Assembly: GCF_025751495.1 (NCBI RefSeq)
Contig: NZ_JAOWKZ010000001.1
Span: 627,920 to 691,919, forward strand
DNA length: 64,000 nucleotides
DNA from: Albidovulum litorale
GTDB taxonomy: Bacteria; Pseudomonadota; Alphaproteobacteria; Rhodobacterales; Rhodobacteraceae
Direction: 5' to 3'
The notes under the pieces were generated by a model. The model saw only the letters and a program-made list of their open reading frames with translations, was not told the DNA's origin and ran no database searches. This document shows positions 33,067 to 57,370 of the stretch, one piece after another. Numbering within the stretch: the stretch's first letter is position 1; the number at the start of each line of letters is the position of its first letter. The translations under genes and the position numbers were made by a program.

Positions 33067-33279
33067 ATGGGGATCGACAAGGAAAGCGACATCTCGGCGA
33101 ATCTGCAGATCGGGCCGACGACGCTTGGCATGGTCCGGATTTATGTCGAGGCCGAGGGGCTGGAACTGCCCTTGGATTTCGACCCTGAAGAGGCCGAGGA
33201 GATCGCCGAAGAACTGCGCGCCGCCGCCGAGGCCGCGCGGGGTATGGGTGGTTCTAAGGGGAAATCCCCGAAGCGGTGA
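33067..33279 (+). CDS. DUF6324 family small protein
   Basis: A 70-aa acidic protein. The sequence DKESDISANLQIGPTTLGMVRIYVEAEGLELPLDFDPEEAEEIAEELR is the DUF6324 signature (noted as NLQIGPTTLGMVRIYVE and DFDPEEAEEIAEELR), common in Rhodobacteraceae. A GGAGG at 33056-33060 is 6 nt before the ATG at 33067, so an in-frame ATG six codons earlier is not the start. Its stop overlaps the convergent mmcB gene by 26 bp. Function is unknown. Confidence 0.85.
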   Translation: MGIDKESDISANLQIGPTTLGMVRIYVEAEGLELPLDFDPEEAEEIAEELRAAAEAARGMGGSKGKSPKR

Positions 33280-33706
33280 CGCCCGGATCGCGGAACCCCT
33301 GCAGGCGCAGCGCGGCGTGGCGGGCGAATTTTTGCACCATCACCTTGCGTCGCGCACCGGCCAAAGGCGCTTCTGGCCCCATCCGCACAATCTCAGCATC
33401 ATAGGCATCTGCAAGGATCAGGCCGGTGCCCTCGGGGAGAAGCTCCACCGGGAAATCGGCATCGACCGCCCAGAAGAACCTGTCGCCCCATTCCAGATAG
33501 TTCTGCCATTTACGGTCCGATGTGAAATCCACCCGACTCGACTTGCACTCGACGATCCAGAGCTCTCCTTTCGGACCGAGCCCCATCACGTCAAGCCTGA
33601 GGCCGGGTGCGGGCACCATCTCTTCCACCGTGACAAAGCCATGGTGCAGAAGATGGCGGCAGACGCCGCGCGCGAGAAGTTGGCCGGGCATGAGATCGTC
33701 CTGCAT
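33254..33706 (-). CDS. mmcB: MmcB family DNA repair protein
   Basis: A 150-aa PD-(D/E)xK-type nuclease-fold protein. MmcB is part of the mitomycin C/DNA-damage response in Caulobacter. GQLLARGVCRHLL begins the fold; LRLDVMGLGPKGELWIVECKSSRVDF carries the Asp and the ExK motif (VECKSS), and DRKWQNYLEWGDRFFWAV follows. The ATG at 33706 opens the frame. An ATG five codons later (33691) has an AGGA upstream and is as likely. The first 26 bp of the 3' end overlap DUF6324 in convergent orientation. Confidence 0.85.
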   Translation of the reverse strand: MQDDLMPGQLLARGVCRHLLHHGFVTVEEMVPAPGLRLDVMGLGPKGELWIVECKSSRVDFTSDRKWQNYLEWGDRFFWAVDADFPVELLPEGTGLILADAYDAEIVRMGPEAPLAGARRKVMVQKFARHAALRLQGFRDPGVTASGISP

Positions 33707-34033
33707 GGCCGAAATATGAACATAAAGTGAACATCTGTCCAGAGCAGCCGAACCTTGATGGCGAGCTTGCCTCTTGCCGAAAGGCGCATTGGGCCCTATT
33801 TCACTTCGCGGCGGGTTCTGCGCTTCTCGTGCAAGGCCCTTTTCCAGTGGCCGATAATTTTTTCCGAGGGAGCTGGCTCTGTCTGGATCGTGGTCCTGAT
33901 ATCCGGCGCCCACCTGGTTAGACCAGGCTCCGGGGAAATACACGCCTTCACGGTCGCCGTGGTTCCCGCCACCTTCCCGATCCAGATTGACGCAGCAATG
34001 CTCCGGCGCAGCAGTCCGGCGCAAGCGGATGCC
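33707..34033. other. Gap between mmcB and a small membrane protein gene, no gene supported
   Basis: About 330 bp. Short open frames exist on both strands, but none has a good ribosome site or a recognised family. One minus-strand frame ends in a very basic stretch (HWKRALHEKRRTRREVK), probably chance. It may contain the mmcB promoter. Confidence 0.3.

Positions 34034-52306: not shown

Positions 52307-52307
<1 letters not shown>
51552..52307 (-). CDS. Exported FG-GAP/VCBS repeat protein
   Basis: A 251-aa secreted protein. After a signal peptide (MRLFAAFCYYMAASFAATPAPAQ) there are two clear FG-GAP-type blades: PRLWDVTGDGQPEIVTVIS and VGAADLDGDGRVEIAYVET. Their DxDGDGxxE loops can bind calcium. 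Cys residues near both ends may form disulfides. Function is unknown. Its start overlaps the ferredoxin stop by one base (TGATG), so it is translated from the ferredoxin transcript. Confidence 0.82.
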
Positions 52308-53355
<1,048 letters not shown>

Positions 53356-53464: not shown

Positions 53465-54355
53465 CTATTTGTCGGTGCTTGGCTTGCCTTGCTTCGATGA
53501 CGCAGATGAAGATCGTCTCCGATGACTCCGGGCGTCGAGCGCACCTCCGCTCGCCGCACCGAGCAGTGGCTGTATCAGCATCCGGTCGAGCCAGAGGTCG
53601 CGGCGCGTGCGAAACTGCTCGATGCCGATCTCCATACCCTTGTGTCCCTTCGCGGGTTGGGCGAGGTAGGTTCCGAAAAGCCGGTCCCACCACGGGAGAT
53701 TGAAGCCGAAGTTCGAATTGGTTTCGCGTGGATCAACGGAATGGTGCACTCGGTGCATGTCCGGGGTGACGACGATACATCTGAGCATACGATCTACCCG
53801 GCGAGGAAAATCAATGTTGGCGTGATTGAAAAGCGCCGTCGCGTTCAGGATGACCTCGAACAAGAGCACGGCGACAGCGGGGGGGCCCAAAGCTGCAACG
53901 ACCACCAGCTTTATCCCCATCGAGATAAGGATTTCTACCGGGTGGAAACGTAAACCTGTGGTCGTGTCGAAATCGAGATCGGCGTGATGCATGCGGTGCA
54001 GACGCCAAAGCCCCGGCACCGCGTGGAACATCACGTGCTGAAGGTAGATTGCGAGATCGAGAAGCAGCATAGAGACAACGATGGCAACCCAAAGCGGAGC
54101 ATCGATGTTGTTGAAGAGCCCCCATCCGCGCTCCTCTGCCATAGCCGCGAGACCAACCGCGAGGATCGGAAACGTCAGCCGCAGAATCGCGGTGTCGAGC
54201 ACGACGAGCGCAAGGTTATTTGTCCATCGGATAACACGCGGTATATCGCGTCGTCGCCGGGGCGCTCCAACTTCCCATAGCGCCATGGCCGCGAGAACGC
54301 CCAGAAAAGCAACAAGACGAATGGTCGGCTCGGCTGCAAGGATTGTGCCGGACAT
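53465..54355 (-). CDS. Sterol desaturase/fatty acid hydroxylase family protein
   Basis: A 296-aa membrane di-iron hydroxylase. The His motifs are HVMFH (107-111), HRMHH (120-124) and a later HANIDF and HRVHHS cluster. Three to four helices surround them. SAM-independent O2 chemistry on sterols, carotenoids or lipids is expected. The ATG at 54355 has AAGGA 8 nt upstream; the longer open frame is not used. Codon choice and GC look lower than in adjacent housekeeping genes. It diverges from the dnaE2-like fragment. Confidence 0.87.
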   Translation of the reverse strand: MSGTILAAEPTIRLVAFLGVLAAMALWEVGAPRRRRDIPRVIRWTNNLALVVLDTAILRLTFPILAVGLAAMAEERGWGLFNNIDAPLWVAIVVSMLLLDLAIYLQHVMFHAVPGLWRLHRMHHADLDFDTTTGLRFHPVEILISMGIKLVVVAALGPPAVAVLLFEVILNATALFNHANIDFPRRVDRMLRCIVVTPDMHRVHHSVDPRETNSNFGFNLPWWDRLFGTYLAQPAKGHKGMEIGIEQFRTRRDLWLDRMLIQPLLGAASGGALDARSHRRRSSSASSKQGKPSTDK

Positions 54356-54507
54356 GGAAGGTGTCCTTCTGCGGGAGTCGGTCGCGATTGAACTGCCATC
54401 ATTACTAGGAGACGACTGCGCCATATGTATAGCAGACATTGACCCGAGATCTTCTGAGGGCAGCATCGCCCCGCAAGCGGCGGTTCAAACCCAGTCCTTT
54501 CCCGGGA

Positions 54508-54544
54508 TTGTAGCAGCCCGTAAAAATGTTCTACTATCGTTCTC
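54508..54544 (+). promoter_or_regulatory. SOS (LexA) box GTTC-N7-GTTC within a putative leaderless promoter
   Basis: GTTC (54528-54531), seven bases, GTTC (54539-54542) is an exact match to the alphaproteobacterial LexA box. TTGTAG (54508-54513), an 18-bp spacer and TACTAT (54532-54537) form a possible promoter whose start point would fall on the ATG at 54545. The box overlaps the -10 element, the usual repression geometry. The gap between the box and the ATG is 2 nt, with no room for a Shine-Dalgarno. Confidence 0.6.
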
Positions 54545-54982
54545 ATGCTGACCGACTATGCGCCGATTAAAGACTGGCCCCGCCCGCCCGCCGCCCTGCC
54601 CCATGCGCGGCTTGGGGAACCGCCCTCGGGCGCGCGGGTCACAGTGGCGGGGCTGGTGCTGGTGCGGCAGCGGCCGGGCACCGCGAAAGGGGTGGTTTTT
54701 CTCACGCTGGAGGATGAGACCGGGGTGGCCAATGTGGTCGTCTGGCAGAAGGTTTTCCAGCGCTTCCGCCGCGCGGTCGTGGCCGGGCGGCTTTTGCGCG
54801 TGACCGGGCGGCTTCAGCGCGAGTCGGAGGTCGTCCATATCGTCGCCGAGACAATCGAGGACATCACCGATATGCTCGACGATCTGCTCGCACCGCCGAC
54901 GCCCGGCCATGATCGAACGGATCAGGAGACCGGCGTCAGATCGCAGACGATCGCCGTCGCGGGGGCGTCGGTGCGGTTATAG
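54545..54982 (+). pseudogene. Fragment of error-prone DNA polymerase DnaE2 (OB-fold part)
   Basis: A 145-aa frame whose middle ([34 protein letters not shown], cited as [17 protein letters not shown] and [14 protein letters not shown]) is the C-terminal OB-fold of DnaE2. VGRLQREGEVVH-like text follows ([16 protein letters not shown]). A full DnaE2 has over 1000 residues; everything upstream of the OB-fold is absent, and the usual DnaE2 C-terminus is replaced by unrelated sequence antisense to the cupin gene. An SOS box lies directly before the ATG. It looks like a deletion remnant of an imuA-imuB-dnaE2 cassette, or an independent small OB-fold protein. Confidence 0.65.
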
Positions 54983-55368
54983 AACCAGTGCACCGTATCG
55001 CCATCCTCGATGATCGCGTCCGCGCCATCCTCTGAAAACTCCGTCTCGCCCGCCGCGCGGCCTTCGACCGTTACCCCGGCGATGACCTTGACGAGGCCCG
55101 GGCGTTTTTCGTGCGAATGCTCGGCGATCTGGCCGCCCGGCGCGATGGTAATGGCACGAAGCTGCATGAAATAGCCCTCGAGCCCGGTCTGACGCCGCAG
55201 CATCTCCTCCTCGATCACGCCAAGCTTGTCGACGGTCAGGCCCTGATGCTCGGTCGGGCCGGACATCTGCGCAAGCGCCGCTCCAGCAACCAAACCAAAG
55301 ATGACACATCCGGTCGCAGGGACAAAACCGATGCTCCGGCCTTCCGTGTTGCGGTTACGCTGGATCAT
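54922..55368 (-). CDS. Exported cupin domain protein
   Basis: A 148-aa protein with an N-terminal hydrophobic segment ([20 protein letters not shown], likely a signal peptide) and a single cupin barrel: [26 protein letters not shown] with the metal-binding His pair (EHSHEKRP) and the second motif [25 protein letters not shown] lies 5 nt before the ATG. It diverges from a GcvA-like LysR gene, which probably controls it; a 12-bp inverted repeat flanks the shared region. The 3' end overlaps the dnaE2 fragment by 61 bp. Confidence 0.85.
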
Positions 55369-55472: not shown

Positions 55473-56405
55473 ATGAAACGCAAGCTGCCGCCGTTCCCCG
55501 CGCTGCGCGCCTTCGAGGCGGCGGCGCGGCTTGGCAGCTTCAAAGCGGCGGCAGACGAGTTGTGTGTCTCTCCCTCGGCGATCAGTCATCAGGTCCGCCT
55601 GCTGGAAACCTATCTCGGTCGGCCGATGTTTTCGCGCGGTCCTCAGGTCGTCCGCCTGACCCAAGCCGGGCAGCGCTACCTGTCCCGCATCGGGCCGCTT
55701 CTTGATGACATCGACGCCAGTACGCGCGAGATCACCGGCGATGCCGCGCGTGGCCAGCTGCGGCTGAAGATGACCGAGTGGTTCGCGAAAAGGTGGCTGA
55801 TCCCGCGACTGCCACGGTTCATGAGCGTTTGCCCCGAAATTGATCTGAAGATCGAAACCGGGCTGCCGCCCACCGACTTTCGCAATGGCGCGCTTGACGT
55901 GATCATTCACTGGGGCGATGCGCCGGTGGAGGGCGTGGTGATAGAGCCCTTTTTTGCCTCGACCCGCACGCCCGTCTGCAGCCCGGCCTATCGTGCAGCG
56001 CATCCCGAACTCAGAGCACCGACGGACCTTGCCGACCATGTCCTCTTGCGCGACGAGACGGATGACGGATGGGCTGAGTGGTTCGCCGCCGCCGACTGCG
56101 CCGAGGCCTGTCCGGAACACGGGCCGGTCTTTTCCCATTGCGAGCTGTCAACGGCTGCGGCCTTAAGTGGAACCGGCGTGGAGCTTGCATACCGCGAACT
56201 GCTGATCGACCTGATCCGCGGCGGCGAACTGGTCCAGATCTTCGATATTGTCTCACCGGTCCGCACCATCTACTCACTCGCCTACGAGGCGCACCGGGCG
56301 ACCGACATGCATATCCGCATGTTCCGAAGCTGGCTTTTTAAGGAAATTCTGCTCGATGCCGCGACGCAGGATAACGTGCTGATGCCGCTCACGGCGGCGC
56401 AGTAG
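55473..56405 (+). CDS. LysR-family regulator, GcvA-like
   Basis: A 310-aa LTTR. The winged helix-turn-helix (residues about 10-70) shows LPPFPALRAFEAAARLGSFKAAADELCVSPSAISHQVRLLE (noted as ALRAFEAAARLGSFKAA and VSPSAISHQVRLLE). The effector-binding domain follows (TEWFAKRWLIPRLPRF, then GALDVIIHWGD), in the style of GcvA regulators. The ligand cannot be read. Start ATG at 55473 (MKRKLPPFP). The adjacent divergent target is the cupin gene. Confidence 0.92.
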   Translation: MKRKLPPFPALRAFEAAARLGSFKAAADELCVSPSAISHQVRLLETYLGRPMFSRGPQVVRLTQAGQRYLSRIGPLLDDIDASTREITGDAARGQLRLKMTEWFAKRWLIPRLPRFMSVCPEIDLKIETGLPPTDFRNGALDVIIHWGDAPVEGVVIEPFFASTRTPVCSPAYRAAHPELRAPTDLADHVLLRDETDDGWAEWFAAADCAEACPEHGPVFSHCELSTAAALSGTGVELAYRELLIDLIRGGELVQIFDIVSPVRTIYSLAYEAHRATDMHIRMFRSWLFKEILLDAATQDNVLMPLTAAQ

Positions 56406-56473: not shown

Positions 56474-57370
56474 ATGACACGCCATCCCTTATTCGGCCTC
56501 GGCCTCGCCGCCTTCGGGGCGCTTATCCTGACGCCGGACACGATGTTCATGCGTTGGTCCGGACTCGAGGGTTTCGCCATGCTGGCTTGGCGGGGCTTGC
56601 TGATGGGCAGCCTTCTGATCGCCGTCTGGTTCGTGACGGCCCAGACGCGGCGGCGCGACCTTCGCGCGATGATGTGCGTCTCGGGTTTCGGCGTCATGTG
56701 TTGCCAGGCGGTGAATGGCACCCTCTTTTCACTCGGCATCGCTCATGCGCCGGTCGCGATCGTGCTTTTTGGCGTGGCGACGATGCCGGTCTTTTCGGCC
56801 CTCCTGTCGCGCTGGCTGTCGGGCGAACAGACCCGCGGTACGACCTGGATCGCGATGGCGGCCGTGATGGGCGGCATCGCGATCGCCGTATTCGGCGACG
56901 GGGCAGAGGGTTTGGGTTTCAACCGCGCCTCGCTTCTGGGCGCGCTCGCGGGGCTGGGCGTGGCGGCGATGCTGGCGCTCGGTTTCGTACTGATGCGCCG
57001 GGCGCGGGACCTGCCGCTGCTGCCCACGATCGGTACGGGCGCGCTGATGGCCGGAACGATCGGGTTTGCCCTGTCCCCGGCCGGCACGCTTGCCGCGGGC
57101 AATGTCTGGGCCATCGCGGCGACCGGTGCGGTGATCCTGCCCGTCTCCTTCCTCGCGCTCAGCTATGCCTCACGCCATACCGAACCCGCCAATGTCAGCC
57201 TGCTGATGCTTCTCGAAACCGTTCTGGGCCCGGCCTGGGTCTGGGCCGGGGCGGGAGAGGCAATGACGGTGCCCATGATGCTTGGGGGCGCTGTGGTGGT
57301 GACCAGCCTCGCACTTTACATTCTGGCGACCGGCCGGCGGAGCCGGACTCCCCCTGCGGGACACATCTGA
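56474..57370 (+). CDS. DMT superfamily (EamA) permease
   Basis: A 298-aa membrane protein with about ten helices and two EamA repeats. Repeat one ends PVAIVLFGVATMPVFSALLSRWLSGE, and repeat two has TEPANVSLLMLLETVLGPAWVWAGAGE; both contain the conserved helix-terminal Glu. It lies 68 bp after the LysR gene. No substrate is evident. It is the third EamA permease in the window; the three are not close copies. Confidence 0.88.
   Translation: MTRHPLFGLGLAAFGALILTPDTMFMRWSGLEGFAMLAWRGLLMGSLLIAVWFVTAQTRRRDLRAMMCVSGFGVMCCQAVNGTLFSLGIAHAPVAIVLFGVATMPVFSALLSRWLSGEQTRGTTWIAMAAVMGGIAIAVFGDGAEGLGFNRASLLGALAGLGVAAMLALGFVLMRRARDLPLLPTIGTGALMAGTIGFALSPAGTLAAGNVWAIAATGAVILPVSFLALSYASRHTEPANVSLLMLLETVLGPAWVWAGAGEAMTVPMMLGGAVVVTSLALYILATGRRSRTPPAGHI

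Follow-up and report, generated by a model that had tools for sequence, protein, structure and literature searches.

The stretch of DNA analysed here (the window: 64,000 nucleotides, C3:627920-691919 of a host genome of 4.05 Mb in 13 contigs) contains a short gene that raises a question: why should a frame of 145 residues that resembles only the last domain of the error-prone polymerase DnaE2 stand directly behind an operator of the SOS response? A first-pass annotation had offered two answers, a remnant left by a deletion that joined the promoter of an imuA-imuB-dnaE2 cassette to the 3' end of dnaE2, and a deliberate SOS-induced OB-fold miniprotein. The comparisons described below favour a different reading, an ancient split of DnaE2: the polymerase core has one gene, and the OB domain has another, SOS-induced and probably leaderless, whose product would probably act as a subunit in trans. 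The features of the locus are collected in Table 1.

Table 1. Features of the OB-gene locus, in positions of the window
Feature	Position	Strand	Basis or remark
2Fe-2S ferredoxin	52307..52621	-	usual OB-gene neighbour in the family (neighbourhood comparison)
Sulfotransferase, between ferredoxin and OB gene	52744-53355	+	missing there in other split genomes
Fatty acid hydroxylase, between ferredoxin and OB gene	53465-54466	-	missing there in other split genomes
Putative -35 element TTGTAG	54508..54513	+	TTG 16-19 nt 5' of the -10 in 70/87 aligned promoters
LexA operator GTTCTACTATCGTTC	54528..54542	+	exact GTTC-N7-GTTC; kept before orthologs in genus and family
Putative -10 element TACTAT, inside the LexA box	54532..54537	+	same-site hexamer TATNTT in 54/87
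Stand-alone DnaE2 OB-domain gene, product of 145 aa	54545..54982	+	profile matches, orthologs, dN/dS
WPRPP motif, N-terminal arm, residues 11-15	54575..54589	+	WPxPP in stand-alone proteins
OB fold, residues 31-106, five strands and a helical stretch	54635..54862	+	AlphaFold pLDDT; PF01336 2e-13
Cupin, between OB gene and EamA	54922-55368	-	missing there in other split genomes
LysR, between OB gene and EamA	55473-56405	+	missing there in other split genomes
EamA transporter	56474..57370	+	several genus members have it on the right side of the OB gene

The regulatory signals in front of the gene are tightly packed: TTGTAG is followed after 18 nt by TACTAT, and a further 7 nt lead to the ATG, two bases beyond the end of an exact LexA box. 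Box, promoter elements and spacings were all found as the first-pass annotation had described them. Since the -10 hexamer ends 7 nt before the ATG, the predicted transcript start falls on the start codon itself, a layout compatible with a leaderless mRNA. A Shine-Dalgarno core was found in none of 87 promoters of this type (19 nt examined in each), and to judge from the sequence the message is probably leaderless. The hexamer occupies box position 5 and the spacing between TTG and hexamer is 16 or 17 nt in 67 of the 87, the 18 nt of the window being rare among its relatives. With the -10 element inside the box and the predicted start on the ATG, direct repression by LexA of a leaderless message would be expected.

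The alphaproteobacterial LexA motif has been described as a "GTTC consensus" in a study of the SOS response of D. shibae (PMC6473078), whose main text does not mention dnaE2. A lone box of this kind is little proof, because the window holds seven exact ones against 1.98 expected by shuffling (seven were reached in 1 of 100 shuffles). The box at the OB gene stands above chance because it is kept there in 12 of 12 genus genomes and at 75 of 80 named family loci, where an exact box was sought from 200 nt before to 60 nt after the start of the OB match; it is absent at L112, L119, L129 and L137, and L136 is cut. Overlapping the promoter and conserved before orthologs, the motif places the gene in the predicted LexA regulon. 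The gap between box and ATG is 2 nt in all twelve genus genes (in G017 as read from the printed sequence), and at 68 of 79 wider loci, that is, 68 of the 75 having a box, an ATG lies 1-5 nt 3' of it; at the remaining seven the first in-frame start lies 11-68 nt away.

The identity of the protein was assigned by profile comparison. The frame matches the NCBIfam model for the error-prone polymerase (PRK05672 / NF004225) with an E-value of 2.4e-32 at about positions 945-1039 of 1047, the next-best NCBIfam models being those of DnaE1 (4.8e-8 or weaker), and Pfam PF01336 is matched at 2e-13. The score lies far under the whole-protein cut-off of PRK05672, as is expected of a fragment used as query. 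Its best match is thus the C-terminal end of the DnaE2 model and not another OB family, as had been claimed at the outset; the 145-aa chain is an OB domain only, not a DnaE2 polymerase, whose domains lie in another gene. An AlphaFold prediction made with 45 sequences gives the OB fold listed in Table 1 with disordered ends (mean pLDDT 76.7; blocks across residues 21-110 reach 88-93, but 70 for residues 41-50). The best 50 Foldseek matches to this model are all OB folds of a generic kind, most of them from tRNA synthetases and RPA/CST proteins, and include no DnaE. The last 25 residues or so read antisense across the cupin gene, an extension that only the closest relative (G001) has as well; the proteins of the other ten genus members measure 121-139 aa. 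The overlap with the end of the cupin gene amounts to 61 bases (54922-54982).

A search of the host's own genome with the NF004225 profile finds three places: a DnaE2 on contig C7, DnaE1 on C10 (more weakly) and the OB frame. An intact dnaE2, which the first-pass annotation had proposed to look for, is not among them. The DnaE2 on C7, a frame of 957 aa with its core at C7:834469-837282, matches model positions 5-938 and keeps the polymerase, fingers and helix-hairpin-helix (HhH) domains (Pfam); its truncation point falls just before the OB domain, the part that the small frame covers (945-1038 in this search). Truncated proteins of this kind stop within some tens of residues past the stretch LRSHPMALLR or a similar one, and full-length DnaE2s continue into the OB domain and end in a tail with RDFH or RNFH, which was found in 28/28 fused, 0/31 truncated and 0/90 stand-alone proteins. 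Conversely, WPxPP occurs in 80 of the 90 stand-alone proteins against none of 28 fused DnaE2s (last 250 residues). The alignment of 90 was made without L136 and L137, the latter a frame of 982 codons with only its OB part in common with DnaE2.

The polymerase half carries its own operator. In 31 of 31 cases the truncated dnaE2 has near its start a LexA-type box, typically GAACAAAACATGAAT, that is exact (6) or differs at a single position (25), within a range running from 61 nt 5' to 9 nt 3' of the reference start; among 20 fused dnaE2 genes, one has such a box in that range. In the seven family genomes that have both halves on one contig, these are in every case 0.2-2.9 Mb apart.

Of 22 genomes of the genus, 12 (G000, 001, 004, 006, 009, 011, 012, 013, 017, 019, 020 and 021) have a truncated DnaE2 and a separate OB gene. 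In the other 10, DnaE2 continues into its OB domain and a separate gene is lacking (in G016 it is cut within that domain by the contig end). In all twelve the DnaE2 match ends at 938-942 and the OB frame has 121-145 aa; the assembly of G017 is suspect, because not only its dnaE2 but also its dnaE1 is broken up into several frames. G011 has, besides its OB gene, a second and weak OB match in a 63-codon frame on C127. Among 139 genomes of the family, 51 have both halves, 65 only a fused DnaE2, 2 (G030 and G055) the split pair plus a full-length DnaE2 and 15 neither, with 2 truncated only (G064, G084), 1 stand-alone only (G071) and 3 unresolved (G081, G098, G118). The stand-alone gene is hence present in 54 of 136 resolved genomes and accompanied by a truncated DnaE2 in 53 of these 54, counts that represent genera and not independent events, since the sample takes about one genome per genus. 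Many bacteria of the family appear, then, to keep the two parts as a matched, damage-induced pair.

The lack of an OB gene in G084 and G064 is best read as an assembly gap because the ferredoxin flank is cut or missing: the G084 sequence stops 231 nt beyond the ferredoxin gene, at the place expected for the OB gene, and a search of G064 found no ortholog of the ferredoxin (best identity 47% vs 77% or more in ten others). In G055 the fused cassette lies on a contig of 126,304 bases and the split system on the largest contig; a cassette of the imuA-imuB-dnaE2 type is mentioned for a 126-kb plasmid of D. shibae (PMC9426580). In G030 the OB match stands at a contig start, apart from the ferredoxin gene. 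A larger draw of 394 family genomes gave matches in either form in 348, nearly all of those listed being short frames. Outside the family, 285 genomes (of a class-wide draw of 289, four being family members) yielded no convincing split: the matches lie in frames of more than 800 aa save nine short ones in eight genomes, some of them near contig starts. As for mobile sources, the features under the plasmid matches were error-prone polymerase, pol III alpha or none (in the listed 40 of 777 plasmid records), and phages gave one weak match only; neither origin was retained.

G071 is a real exception: in its genome, 100% complete and in 7 contigs, ImuB and the OB gene are present but no DnaE2 was found, so that the OB protein may either act in a role of its own or have become an orphan recently. 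The LexA box of this OB gene (L227:5511-5525) overlaps an in-frame ATG. An independent SOS factor that has lost its link to DnaE2, and that might bind single-stranded DNA or act together with ImuB, the clamp or DnaE1, would account for this genome and for an arm that fused DnaE2s do not have, but the near-constant company of a truncated DnaE2 and the lack of an OB gene in the ten genus members with a full-length enzyme make such a factor unlikely.

The remaining mutasome genes of the host are dispersed as well. An exact LexA box precedes the ATG of ImuB (L224:4509-6149) by 8 nt and that of an ImuA-like gene (L224:10089-10757) by 16 nt, the second box lying at L224:10058-10072; the ImuA-like assignment is based on NF033429 (4.4e-8, under the cut-off) and on 148 residues that are 36% identical to the frame preceding imuB in G002. 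The genes are not contiguous as in an imuA-imuB-dnaE2 cassette: on C8 about 4 kb separate ImuB from the ImuA-like gene, C7 carries DnaE2, and C3 the OB gene. An ImuA-like gene near ImuB was not seen at nine of ten other loci (nine split genomes and G071), G001 having one. In G002, G003 and G005, with fused DnaE2, ImuB adjoins dnaE2. A third exact box was noted at 8687-8701 of L224. The window also contains an MmcB-like DNA repair gene (33254-33732, minus strand; PF06319, 5.6e-42) with an exact box GTTCACTTTATGTTC (33718-33732) that is followed after 11 nt by an in-frame ATG; its 15 bases recur in the box of the ImuA-like gene, there in the reverse orientation with respect to the gene.

Taken together, these observations allow a mechanism to be proposed. 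In an ancestor within the Rhodobacteraceae, dnaE2 would have been broken between the HhH region and the OB domain, the core remaining as the truncated DnaE2 and the OB domain, now with a short N-terminal arm (WPxPP) and without the C-terminal RDFH tail, acquiring a gene of its own next to that for the ferredoxin. Each half would have its own LexA-type box, as ImuB and the ImuA-like gene do in this genome, and upon DNA damage and cleavage of LexA the parts would be made from separate loci. The OB protein would then join the ImuB-bound DnaE2 core in trans and restore contacts with the clamp, single-stranded DNA or other domains of the kind known for other C-family polymerases. A 2026 census of polymerases models the contact between DnaE2 and ImuB via the PHP domain and the HhH region (PMC12926913; neither "OB domain" nor "OB-fold" occurs in its text), and since both lie within the part that the truncated core matches, the mutasome could withstand the loss of a covalently attached OB domain. 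In Pol III alpha of E. coli the OB domain is described as bridging fingers, thumb and exonuclease and touching the clamp, the isolated domain is reported to bind single-stranded DNA, and mutations in it are reported to reduce synthesis (PMC4703070). From these contacts, and from an ImuB contact that the retained core would keep, we infer that the OB protein rejoins the core.

A more specific form of this proposal sees a dispersed mutasome, its genes under separate control, that is licensed by the OB protein as a subunit with a dosage of its own, the core being inactive or weak until the product of the LexA-occluded leaderless promoter joins it; we put this forward only tentatively. UmuD' in Pol V offers a parallel to such a subunit in role, not in ancestry. 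The reverse arrangement, with a core that works alone and an OB protein that restrains the mutasome by tuning or ending its action, would be served by separate boxes, which would permit separate timing, and by the several DnaE2s said to be without an OB domain (Timinskas et al., 2013; PMC3919608). The reduced synthesis reported for the E. coli mutants speaks against it, and it appears quite improbable.

The history of the split can be followed in part. In a quick LG+G4 tree of DnaE2 cores (59 rows, without G016, G017 and G018, which are contig-cut or broken), the 31 truncated cores are one clade, set on one side of a branch with an SH-aLRT of 99; none of 500 shuffles came out as low. The neighbour of this clade is the fused DnaE2 of G025, and the truncated L201 sits on a long branch. 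The DnaE2s of G002, G003 and G014 fall in two distant clades, which suggests that the split pair was replaced at least twice by a foreign full-length DnaE2. In a DnaE1 tree of 21 rows the split state takes three changes, with one change in 0% of 200 bootstrap trees, and a quick tree with four extra rows takes six; an AU test does not reject one split clade (p 0.29), and an independent-pairs test found one supported pair only. The DnaE1 tree is thus concordant in outline, not significant, and repeated coupled loss in the genus is suggestive only. The OB-domain tree (96 columns), of little resolution, does not reject a single stand-alone clade (p 0.785).

The site itself has also been conserved. 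The ferredoxin gene lies divergently beside the OB gene at 73 of 79 named loci (5 without it, 1 too short to tell), a median of 172 nt from the start of the OB match; this gene, rather than the imu cassette that the first-pass annotation had suggested looking for in relatives, is the usual neighbour. In G002, G003 and G014, with fused DnaE2, the EamA match starts about 130-190 nt past the ferredoxin start with no OB match between, and neither an OB match nor an exact box was found upstream of ferredoxin at any of ten such loci examined, including the cut G084. The fatty acid hydroxylase next to the OB gene in the window is weakly similar to the ornithine lipid hydroxylase OlsE and finds no match at the corresponding place in G001, G006 and G020.

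Relatives keep the same short frame under purifying selection, the observation that the first-pass annotation had named as one that would count against a remnant. Nei-Gojobori dN/dS over eight genus pairs is 0.10-0.22 for residues 1-118 and 0.03-0.19 for residues 31-109, and 30 columns are invariant in an alignment of 45 stand-alone proteins (the window protein and 44 of the 80 named). The tails past residue 118, which are unaligned, show no constraint, except for near-identical ones in G000 and G001. The joint presence of an operator and a 3' domain of DnaE2 had led to the idea of a cassette remnant, which is hardly credible given the presence of the gene in 12/22 genus and 54/136 resolved family genomes, the selection on it, its constant site (73 of 78 testable named loci) and the complementary truncation of DnaE2. 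The SOS-induced miniprotein came much nearer, and what has to be added to it is a polymerase without precisely such a domain.

The pair resembles known DnaE2 in that its halves match the two parts of one model and carry LexA-type boxes, and differs from it in being two genes on different contigs without the RDFH tail. Compared with the imuA-imuB-dnaE2 cassette, imuB and an imuA-like gene stand here apart from dnaE2 with boxes of their own. The DnaE2s without an OB domain of Timinskas et al. (2013) are described in passages that name no separate OB gene or partner, and the word "standalone" is absent from that text (PMC3919608). Stand-alone ImuB-C proteins are likewise a mutasome domain made as its own protein, theirs being a domain of ImuB and the present one a domain of the polymerase (PMC6511836). 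The OB domain of E. coli Pol III alpha corresponds to the present protein in its C-terminal position; there it is covalent and part of a replicative polymerase (PMC4703070). No paper on a split DnaE2 stood among the matches listed in searches of freely accessible journal literature.

The finding amounts to a C-family polymerase naturally split into two unlinked, SOS-controlled genes in some fifty sampled genera. It follows that the "truncated" DnaE2s of the Rhodobacteraceae should not be counted as broken, and that the small OB protein in these genomes is probably part of the mutasome. Where the OB domain is fused to the polymerase it is hard to ask what it contributes to translesion synthesis, and the split provides a ready genetic test of this.
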